Shown in pieces: positions 21,299-25,065 of a stretch of DNA of 25,065 bases (positions are counted from its first letter, which is position 1; every line of letters begins with the position of its first letter). The notes below the pieces were generated by a model. That model did not search any database. It saw nothing but the letters and a program-made list of their open reading frames with translations, and was not told where the DNA came from. Source of the DNA: a virus; IMG/VR virus record IMGVR_UViG_3300042091_000013, positions 1 through 25,065 of that record; one strand, written 5' to 3'. Position numbers and translations under genes: made by a program.

Positions 21299-22509
21299 TG
21301 GCGACTTCTGTTCCACCTATTGTCTGGACTCCCGAAGGCGTAGTGCTGCCCACTGACGCGGCGATCCTTGCCGGTGTCCAGGCAGACATAAACACCGCTT
21401 TCGGCGGAGGCGTCAATCCCGCTTTATCGACACCGCAGGGACAGATCGCTTCCAGCGACTCAGCGATCATCTCGGACAAGAACAGCGCAATCGCCTACAT
21501 TGCGAATCAGGTTGACCCGCAATATGCAGAGGGAAGGTTTCAAGACGCTATCGGCCAAATCTACTTTATGACGCGCAATGCAGCGACTTCCACTGTGGTC
21601 ATCGCAACCATCGGCGGATTGCCTGGAACCTACATCGCGGCTGGCGCTCTTGCGCTCGATACCTCTGGAAACGTCTATCAGCTTCTTGGTGCTGTGACCA
21701 TCGGCGGCGGCGGAACGATTCCGGCAGAGTTCGCCAATGTCTCTACGGGTCCGATTCCGTGCCCATCAGGATCGCTGATTCAGATTTACCGGGCGATACC
21801 AGGATGGGATAGCGTAACCAACGCCTCGGCAGGGATTCTAGGCTCTTACGTGGAAAGCTCGCAAGAGTTTGAATTGCGCCGCCAAAACTCTGTCGCGCTC
21901 AACAGCCATGGAACTACAGATGCGATCTTTGCCAATGTCTACGCGGTTCCCGGCGTACTCGACTGCTACGTGATCGACAACCCATCAGGAAACACGGTGA
22001 ACTATGGATCGACAAATTACCCGCTTGCCCCACACTCGGTTTATGTTGCGGTCGTTGGCGGCGCGGCCAGCGCAATCGCACAAGCCATCTGGCTCTCCAA
22101 AGACGGCGGCTGCAACTACAACGGGAACACCACGGAAACCGTCTACGACACCCGCTACTCCGCGCCTCAGCCCGCCTACCAAGTGACGTTCAACATACCG
22201 ACTGGGACAGCGGTCTATTTTGCGGTCACGGTGACCAATGCGGGAACTCTTCCGTCTGACTACGCGACACTGATTCAGAACGCGGTCATCGCGCAGTTCA
22301 ACGGGCAAAACAACAATACTCCTGCCGGAATCGGATCATTGATTCTAGCCCTCAACTATACGGGCGCAATCCTCGCAGCAGTTCCGGGGATTTCGCTCGT
22401 GAGTATCCTTGTGGGCCTAACAAGTTCGCCCACCGGATACGATCTGACAATGGGAATAGACCAGCAGCCGACGATTCAGGCTTCGCAGATTGCAGTGGTG
22501 GCAATTTGA
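21298..22509 (+). CDS. Baseplate J-like protein (gp47 family)
   Basis: A 403-residue wedge arm protein. Recognisable parts are the N-terminal ILAGVQADINTAFGGGVNPA with STPQGQIASSDSAIISDKN, RFQDAIGQIYFMTR, the middle ESSQEFELRRQNSVALNSHG (about 190-209), and the C-terminal IGSLILALNYTGAILAAVPG. All are typical of J/gp47 proteins. It overlaps W by one base and the next gene by four. Confidence 0.88.
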   Translation: MATSVPPIVWTPEGVVLPTDAAILAGVQADINTAFGGGVNPALSTPQGQIASSDSAIISDKNSAIAYIANQVDPQYAEGRFQDAIGQIYFMTRNAATSTVVIATIGGLPGTYIAAGALALDTSGNVYQLLGAVTIGGGGTIPAEFANVSTGPIPCPSGSLIQIYRAIPGWDSVTNASAGILGSYVESSQEFELRRQNSVALNSHGTTDAIFANVYAVPGVLDCYVIDNPSGNTVNYGSTNYPLAPHSVYVAVVGGAASAIAQAIWLSKDGGCNYNGNTTETVYDTRYSAPQPAYQVTFNIPTGTAVYFAVTVTNAGTLPSDYATLIQNAVIAQFNGQNNNTPAGIGSLILALNYTGAILAAVPGISLVSILVGLTSSPTGYDLTMGIDQQPTIQASQIAVVAI

Positions 22510-23078
22510 ACAATGTCCTCCAAACCGTTGCATCGCAGTACGGGGACAGCCCGACGATCCTTGCGCTCATCGAATCGTTCAATGCGGCGGTTGATCCCTC
22601 GGAGGACATTGACAACTTCTATGTCTGGGTGTGGGATGTGGCGACGGCGCAAGGATTCGGGCTTGATATTTGGGGACGCATAGTCGGCGTTACTAGAACG
22701 ATTCCAACAAGCCCTGCGACTGTTTTGACAGACGCGCAGTTTCTGCAGTTGATTCTGCTGAAAGCCCTCAGCAACATCTCGCGGGCGTCTTCGTATTCAA
22801 TCAACACGCTGCTTCTGGATTGGATGCAGGGGCGCGGAAGGACCTACGTCAACGATCTGGGAAATATGCTGATACGTTACATGTTCGAGTTCGCCTTGGC
22901 TCCGTTCGAGATTGATATTATTACTCAGAGCGGAATCTTTCTGAGACCGGCAGGCGTTGGCGGATGGATGGTGAACTTTCAACCGCCTGTTTTTGGGTTT
23001 AAGGGCATGACAGATGTAGCGGTTGGGTTCAATCAGGCTCCGTTTATGCCAACGGGAAACCCTTATGCAGTTGCGTGA
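22506..23078 (+). CDS. DUF2612 baseplate protein, TTG start
   Basis: A 190-residue protein of the DUF2612 family, encoded after J and before the fibre in many contractile-tail phages; probably the baseplate-to-fibre link. Matches include FYVWVWDVATAQGFGLDIWG, LKALSNISRASSYSINTLL (about 80-98), RGRTYVNDLGNMLIRYMFEF and IDIITQSGIFLRPAGVGG. The start is TTG at 22506, overlapping the previous stop (TTGA); no ATG or GTG occurs near it and the homologous region begins almost at once, so the rare start is likely real. Confidence 0.82.
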   Translation: MNNVLQTVASQYGDSPTILALIESFNAAVDPSEDIDNFYVWVWDVATAQGFGLDIWGRIVGVTRTIPTSPATVLTDAQFLQLILLKALSNISRASSYSINTLLLDWMQGRGRTYVNDLGNMLIRYMFEFALAPFEIDIITQSGIFLRPAGVGGWMVNFQPPVFGFKGMTDVAVGFNQAPFMPTGNPYAVA

Positions 23079-23087
23079 GGAGAGACA

Positions 23088-23984
23088 ATGCAGTTAAGCA
23101 ATGCTCCAGCACAAATCGTAGAGGCGTGGGCAACTGGAGATTCGACCAAAACGAATCCTATCCCTGTTCCCTCACAGCAAGGCATCACACCTGGCGCAGC
23201 CTCGTGGGTTGATGGATTTCCTCCACTTTGCAGCGCAGATGCGTCCGCAGGCGGAGTTCCTCCGAATCGCGAGGACATGAATGGCGGTCTGTACCAAATG
23301 AGCGCCGTCGATGTGTGGATGTGTGCTGGTGGAGGATTCCCCTACAACTCCGCGTTCTCTGCTTCCATCGGCGGCTATCCGAAAGGCGCTCGCGTCTTGA
23401 TGGCCAGCGGTAACGGGTACTGGGTCAGCACGGTTGATAACAACGTGACGGACCCGGACACTGGCGGGGCAGGATGGGCCAGCGCAGATGAAAACGCGAT
23501 TACGGCCTTGACGGGCGACGTGAGCGCATCTGGACCGGGAAGCGCCGCCGCGACAGTGAACTGGCCTAAGCCGGGAACCATAGGCAGCACCACGGCGAAC
23601 ACGGGAGCTTTTACGACGCTCACGGCCACGACCCCAGCGTCTTCCGACAACAGCACAAATGTGGCAACAACCGCCTGGTGTCTGCTGGGATTCGTGATTT
23701 CTCTCGGCACGAATGGCTATATCGGGGTGCCAACGTGGTTAGGCGGCTGGATGCTCCAATGGGGAACCAGTGGCATAATTCCTAACAACACCGAAACCTC
23801 TGTCAGCTTCAATGGAACCGGATTTCCAAACGCTTGCTTCGCGGTGTTCGCAACAGACAGCGGGGGCCGGGTGTCAACTGGAAACTCTGCGGCTGTGGCG
23901 GCGGCTCCATCTTCAAAGACAGCATTTAACGTGAATGTCTCCGCATCAGGTGAAACAGTTACCTGGTTTGCGATTGGAAACTAG
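23088..23984 (+). CDS. Tail fibre protein with gp53-like C-terminal domain
   Basis: A 298-residue fibre. The N-terminal part (about 1-140) should attach to the baseplate. The middle has fibre-type repeats: ALTGDVSASGPGSAAATVNW and TTANTGAFTTLTATTPASSD, then STNVATTAWCLLGF. The C terminus resembles the gp53-like receptor-binding domain (GYIGVPTWLGGWMLQWGTSG, SVSFNGTGFPNACFAVFATD). GGAGAGAC before ATG 23088 supports the start. No chaperone gene is seen right after it. Confidence 0.8.
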   Translation: MQLSNAPAQIVEAWATGDSTKTNPIPVPSQQGITPGAASWVDGFPPLCSADASAGGVPPNREDMNGGLYQMSAVDVWMCAGGGFPYNSAFSASIGGYPKGARVLMASGNGYWVSTVDNNVTDPDTGGAGWASADENAITALTGDVSASGPGSAAATVNWPKPGTIGSTTANTGAFTTLTATTPASSDNSTNVATTAWCLLGFVISLGTNGYIGVPTWLGGWMLQWGTSGIIPNNTETSVSFNGTGFPNACFAVFATDSGGRVSTGNSAAVAAAPSSKTAFNVNVSASGETVTWFAIGN

Positions 23985-23992
23985 GGGGAACG

Positions 23993-25065
23993 ATGAAAAG
24001 TTTGTTTGCATCGGCGATTCTGATCGCCTGCATGATCTTTCCGGCTACGGTTCACGCCCAGTCGAGCGGCACTACTCCGCCTCCGCCGCCAGTGTGTTCT
24101 TCGAGTAATGCGGGGGCGATCTATACTGACACGGCGACAACTCCCCCAACCGTGTACACCTGCTCCTACTACAACCTCGTTTGGCAGTGGGTTGTCAATC
24201 CGAGTTATGGCGGTCTGGTGTATTATCCGACTGTGCCATCGACTTGTTCTGGCGCTTTGCCAGTCTTCTTGGCTGGATGGCCCATAACTCAAATGTATTT
24301 ATGCGAGAGCGGGGTTCCTAAAGCTGTAGCTAATGGATTAACTGTTCCTATTGCTATCACATCTGGCGGCACGGGGGCATCCACCGCAGGGGGAGCACTG
24401 CAAAACCTGGACGCCGCAATCGCCTCTTATACCGGCACAGCAGACCCGCCTTCGCAGTCCTGCACAGGCGTGGCTTGGGTGGACCTGGGTGAGTTTGCTA
24501 CAAGTACGACAGATAAGCTCTACCAGTGCCTAAGCGGTGGTTGGACATTGGTTGGAGGGGCTGGCTGCTCGACAGGCGGATGCACGATGACCGGGCCGCT
24601 CGCGGCTCCGAGCATCAACAAAGTGCTGTACGTGGGAACGCCAGGCGGCTATGCGAATCTTGCGGCGGCGAACGCAGCGGCAATTGCGGCGGGCGGGGGA
24701 ACGATCATCACGCCGCCGGGATACACGGAGACTTTGAGCAATATCGTTATAGGAGCAAGCGGCGCATCCGTGTTTTGGTCGGCGGGAACGGGTACCATGA
24801 TTACTGTCACCGGGACGACAGGGATACAATTTTACAGCGGCTCAGGGTCAAGCTGCGATGTCCCGAAAAGCTGCCACATCATTACGGCGCAGACTAGCGG
24901 TTCTCCGATAAGTTTAGTCTCAAACTATCCCCAGGATGGCACAGGCGGAAGCATCTTTCTCGATGGATGGTTTATTGACGGCGGCTCAGAGGCAGTGAGT
25001 TTTTCCGACGCGGAAGTGTCGCTTGGGAACGTCTTCGCCAACTCCTATCTGCGCGATGTGTCGAT
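23993..25065 (+). CDS. Signal-peptide-bearing fibre/beta-helix protein, 3' end beyond window
   Basis: An open frame from ATG 23993 (after AGGGGGAA) to the right edge, 357 codons without stop. Residues 1-22 form a signal peptide: MK, hydrophobic SLFASAILIACMIFPATV, cleavage after V-H-A. A lipobox-like LIAC (10-13) is an alternative. A Pro-rich stretch follows, then two Cys-containing modules (VCSSSNAGAIYTDT...YTCSYYNLVWQW; SCTGVAWVDLGEF...YQCLSGGWTLVG). SGGTGASTAGGALQNLDAA is a classic tail-fibre motif. From about residue 220, PGGYANLAAANAAAIAAGGG and TIITPPGY look like the entry to a pectate-lyase-type beta-helix. It is either an exported phage protein or a fibre with an acquired signal. Confidence 0.72.
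   Translation, partial: MKSLFASAILIACMIFPATVHAQSSGTTPPPPPVCSSSNAGAIYTDTATTPPTVYTCSYYNLVWQWVVNPSYGGLVYYPTVPSTCSGALPVFLAGWPITQMYLCESGVPKAVANGLTVPIAITSGGTGASTAGGALQNLDAAIASYTGTADPPSQSCTGVAWVDLGEFATSTTDKLYQCLSGGWTLVGGAGCSTGGCTMTGPLAAPSINKVLYVGTPGGYANLAAANAAAIAAGGGTIITPPGYTETLSNIVIGASGASVFWSAGTGTMITVTGTTGIQFYSGSGSSCDVPKSCHIITAQTSGSPISLVSNYPQDGTGGSIFLDGWFIDGGSEAVSFSDAEVSLGNVFANSYLRDVS

Follow-up and report, generated by a model that had tools for sequence, protein, structure and literature searches.

Some phages appear to export a receptor-binding spike from the cytoplasm ahead of lysis, as is suggested by a Sec-type export signal found in every readable relative of a fibre-like gene and also on unrelated fibres and spikes. 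The gene in question (positions 23993..25065, + strand; 357 aa read, 3' end lost at the contig end) closes a virus record of 25,065 bases, which was analysed in its entirety and is referred to here as the window. Tail fibres are understood as parts of the virion whose folding and assembly take place in the cytoplasm. Were some of them exported first, phage assembly would gain a last step outside the cytoplasm, the host Sec system and signal peptidase would become factors in the making of infectious particles, and annotation would tend to misread such genes as secreted proteins of the host. If the proteins stay soluble instead, they would form a class, little described so far, of phage binding proteins or depolymerases that are secreted. 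Because related spikes occur with and without a signal, the question is directly testable.

The gene, its surroundings and its export signal

The gene order of the window is that of a contractile-tailed, myovirus-like phage: terminase, portal (PF06381), a Mu F-like head protein and a DUF3383 sheath are followed by a tape measure, a baseplate J-like protein (21301..22509, +; profile matches), a DUF2612 tail protein (22506..23078, +; profile match) and an ordinary tail fibre without signal, called fibre 1 below (23088..23984, +; Gp53-like C-terminus, Gp53-like_C PF21882, phrog_12796). Next comes the focal open reading frame, which is real: its ATG at 23993 stands 8 bases past the stop of fibre 1 with GGGGG just 5' of it, and the frame stays open to the contig end. 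No integrase was detected in 15 partial records, a result that carries little information on lifestyle. One related contig carries an ORF of 240 aa between the baseplate J and DUF2612 genes (L039:7327-8046) that resembles, by eye, a GIY-YIG homing endonuclease.

The N-terminus of the focal protein, MKSLFASAILIACMIFPATVHA↓Q, is predicted to be a Sec signal of signal-peptidase-I type (residues 1-22; 23993..24058, +), with an n-region MKS, an uncharged hydrophobic core and a cleavage site VHA↓Q after residue 22. Relatives were gathered by scans of IMG/VR, with the focal protein as query and then with the alignment as query, and 15 distinct family sequences were aligned, the window included and a repeat fetch and a near-copy left out. 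Signals were called by a simple rule of our own (a basic n-region, an uncharged hydrophobic core and small residues at both -3 and -1), which all 15 distinct members passed, so that the clean export signal which the sequence-only reading had described on a gene in the fibre position proved to be a property of the family. Signals of 19 to 26 residues were found, among them MKRIWISLFLLGSVIFPAMVYA↓Q, MKKFVIVTIFTVCAIFPSLIFS↓Q, MKRLFLVFAFLLFAHSAFA↓Q and MKTLERVLGICIIIAVMLLCARCAFS↓Q; they diverge widely (mean identity 33%), while the Gln at +1 is invariant in all members and the Cys-rich head behind it is nearly fixed. Where signals of equal length were compared, 58% of codon pairs in the signal changed the amino acid, versus 16% in the mature domain. 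Under random mutation at the observed divergence a passing signal would survive in 2-9% of copies per homologue, versus the 15/15 observed, a crude estimate that ignores relatedness among homologues. The background was low: the rule was passed by 10/622 (1.6%) of the upstream structural ORFs of related phages, by a similar share of shuffled N-termini (56/3110, 1.8%), and by 0/70 and 0/60 of the genes in the first two slots after baseplate J, i.e., those preceding the focal slot. Because the signal is conserved, export of the focal protein is well supported by these comparisons. The lipobox proposed at Cys13 is unlikely, and with it a lipoprotein was rejected, as Cys13 is not conserved and other residues stand there in relatives.

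That the hydrophobic N-terminus could be an uncleaved membrane-active or assembly segment of a cytoplasmic virion protein is an improbable reading, for which it can be said that cleavage is predicted, and by a simple rule; against it stand the charge of the n-region, the uncharged core, the small residues at -3 and -1, the Gln at +1 throughout the family and the variable signal length. Less credible still is a host-derived secreted gene, a mis-assembly or a sequence error. The focal protein matches no Pfam family, as such an origin might lead one to expect, but the same gene sits in the same tail slot of independent viral contigs, and the signals vary and yet pass the rule. Moreover, two pattern scans of a bacterial and archaeal genome collection, which reach only fairly close relatives, returned no relative of the head domain, and this speaks likewise against the suggested fusion of a fibre to a host secretory protein. 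An error near the start is ruled out by the 15 distinct family members, and no start codon further downstream is both common to the family and preceded by a ribosome-binding site.

A constant head and an exchanged outer part

Behind the signal lies a constant, Cys-rich head (residues 23-110; 24059..24322, +), whose Cys 35, 57, 85 and 104 are conserved across the aligned family. It is followed by the fibre-type motif ITSGGTGASTAGGALQNLDAA (24344..24418, +; weak match to the tail fibre family phrog_6578, E 0.04), by a second Cys module with Cys 157, 179, 192 and 197 (24461..24583, +) and by the start of the exchangeable outer part, which is not common to the relatives found (24611..25065, +). 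The standard fibre motif named in the sequence-only reading is thus present (GGTGA, residues 125-129), and so are its Cys-paired modules, with 11 Cys in 357 aa (3.1%) versus 0-1.3% in the other window proteins tested. A beta-helix entry in the outer part is plausible at most: the predicted structure of the 357 residues is of low confidence (mean pLDDT 47.5), and the AlphaFold models of this protein and of its head were too weak to support a fold search. A Cys-loop pattern derived from the focal head, and hence circular for the focal family itself, recurs in L154 and L158, both unrelated and signal-bearing, and in 0/834 long ORFs without signal. Cys content of the variable outer part of the family was not raised (1.05% versus 1.20% in fibre 1). 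The head gave no convincing match in PDB, Pfam or NCBIfam, and no named phage was found to hold a relative of the focal protein. A likeness of residues 69-100 to PLL lectins was considered and rejected, as no single stretch was significant alone.

Identities averaged over 55 contig pairs show how these parts evolve. The constant regions agree closely, with 82% in baseplate J, 82% over residues 1-125 of fibre 1 and 85% over the initial 85 residues of the mature focal head, and the identities of focal head and baseplate J correlate (r 0.71). Low values were obtained for the signal (33%), the final 100 residues of fibre 1 (32%) and the focal region just past the head (37%). With a constant head and an exchanged outer part, the focal protein is laid out like fibre 1 plus a signal, and its place among the fibre genes, its constant N-terminal head and its exchanged outer part are those of a receptor-binding fibre. 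In relatives, the outer parts match families of tail and virion proteins and, in L013, a beta-propeller.

Export signals on unrelated fibres and spikes

The sequence-only reading had proposed a search for the same signal in neighbouring fibre genes of related phages, and it was right to suppose an unusual fibre strategy. Sec signals occur on unrelated fibre families too. In phages related by baseplate J the same slot also holds unrelated signal-bearing proteins, namely L058 and the members of a family marked by the motif FNLFxPAxGvLkGxxSTYVTT; one of these members (L081) has a C-terminal S74 chaperone domain, as is typical of spikes. A scan with this family returned 38 viral loci, 37 of which pass the signal rule, a count inflated by choosing the best of several possible starts. 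One of these loci, L159, bears the signal MKKILLSLLFCGYVFA↓Q and then a domain whose homologues stand at the very N-terminus of spikes in named phages; those spikes are without signal. This domain matches PDB 7eeq, 'Tailspike head-binding domain', with E 1.4e-17 for the alignment and 1e-09 for the single sequence. Among the best 80 viral relatives of the domain, 75 begin at it without a signal and five carry a Sec signal that ends before Gln. On the spike tree, with its short alignment and long branches, presence of the signal changed at least three times.

These five spikes, with a signal directly before a virion-binding-type domain, expose the weak point in the premise that Sec signals have no place on virion fibres, and a fibre that is first exported and joins the virion afterwards must consequently be considered. 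Against the support they lend, it has to be noted that translation of some exported spikes could begin at an internal Met and give a form without signal, and that the tree is short and long-branched; in L215 a good ribosome-binding site precedes the signal-bearing start and none precedes the internal Met codons.

Two of the five (L186, L219) have a CxGC pair in the head-binding domain (GPCAGC, RPCTGC), while their signal-free relatives mostly read NPLxGG. The genes after these two spikes (L186:3646-5325, L219:3613-5259) also start with an evident signal, and some phages thus seem to have two exported genes of the fibre slot in tandem. Elsewhere, a protein of 1653 aa (L074:398-5356) combines a Sec-type signal with a weak GDSL-lipase match and is encoded upstream of the baseplate genes and not after the fibre, and a protein of 1253 aa with a Sec-type signal and unknown function is encoded in the complete uncultivated phage record MW202444.1 (L114:1811-5572).

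Proposed fate of the exported protein

Our preferred reading, which we hold with slightly less than even confidence and which draws on sequence comparison, is that the focal gene provides a tailed phage with a second receptor-binding fibre or spike, itself exchangeable, which Sec would export late in infection and which would mature in the periplasm and join virions at lysis. The host Sec system would export the protein during late infection, and signal peptidase I, we infer, would cut off residues 1-22 and leave Gln23 exposed. The Cys-rich head may then form disulfides in the periplasm, where the protein would wait until lysis. Virions stay in the cytoplasm, so the two are assumed to meet only at lysis, when the constant head may attach to the tails of released virions (or the protein may be released free) and the variable outer part may bind or digest a polymer of the host surface. 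Finished P22 heads accept tailspikes in vitro, which makes such a late addition feasible. A head that evolves like the baseplate, together with unrelated exported spikes that keep a virion-binding domain, makes a virion partner the simplest guess. Against attachment to the virion speak fibre 1, which already provides the virion with a receptor-binding protein, a focal head without detectable relative of known role, and the ordinary Cys content of the outer part. That exported receptor-binding proteins are a general, repeatedly evolved strategy, with periplasmic processing, disulfide bonding and addition to virions only at lysis, is a possibility we put forward tentatively.

Nearly as likely as a virion-joined fibre is a free binding protein or depolymerase. 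In this case a soluble adhesin, depolymerase or receptor-covering protein, periplasmic or released and made late, would never enter the virion; this has a substantial chance of being correct, if less than an even one, and such a protein may clear or mask receptors and debris, sparing the progeny, or exclude other phages. The signal evidence fits it equally, the virion is already served by fibre 1, and the gene is missing from the slot in some related phages, e.g., L065, as would be expected of an accessory gene; furthermore, the exported fibre of the L014 phage is followed directly by a second signal-bearing gene, which has a LamG/concanavalin-like lectin domain (L023:11906-12703; PF13385, E 1.3e-17). 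However, a free protein has no obvious need for a head evolving like the baseplate, exported spikes would not need to keep a virion-binding domain, and no device for crossing the outer membrane was found in four complete relatives, which gave no Pfam match to a C-terminal outer-membrane anchor, sorting or surface-secretion domain. This negative result also counts for the preferred reading and speaks against a trimeric autotransporter or another anchored surface adhesin.

Known systems offer partial likenesses to both. The 7eeq-like head-binding domain is common to the five exported spikes and to named podophage tailspikes (Xanthomonas phage PBR31, Shewanella phage X14, Rhodoferax phage P26218), which resemble the focal protein in their constant N-terminal head, exchangeable outer part and fibre or spike position, but are without signal and have a head-binding domain to which the focal head is not homologous. 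T5 Llp, which covers the receptor, is similar in possible function, i.e., the protection of progeny, but it is a small lipoprotein, whereas the focal protein is a large modular fibre without conserved lipobox. Phage Sec substrates as such are already known. The endolysin of Oenococcus phage fOg44 is secreted (reviewed in PMC6116005) and, as is proposed for the focal protein, passes through the host Sec system before lysis, but it is a lysis enzyme and not a fibre. Phages of Porphyromonas gingivalis encode Q-rule Sec substrates of unknown function which, like the focal protein, combine a Sec signal with Gln at +1; in the part of the source drawn on here they are not termed tail fibres, and host and sequence are unrelated as far as tested (PMC10367356). 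Searches of the open-access literature, which omits most subscription papers, turned up no account of a tail fibre or spike that is exported. In a phage of the focal clade, a Tlde1-domain (L,D-transpeptidase-like) protein is encoded downstream of the exported fibre (L053:15969-16331; PF10908, E 1.2e-12).
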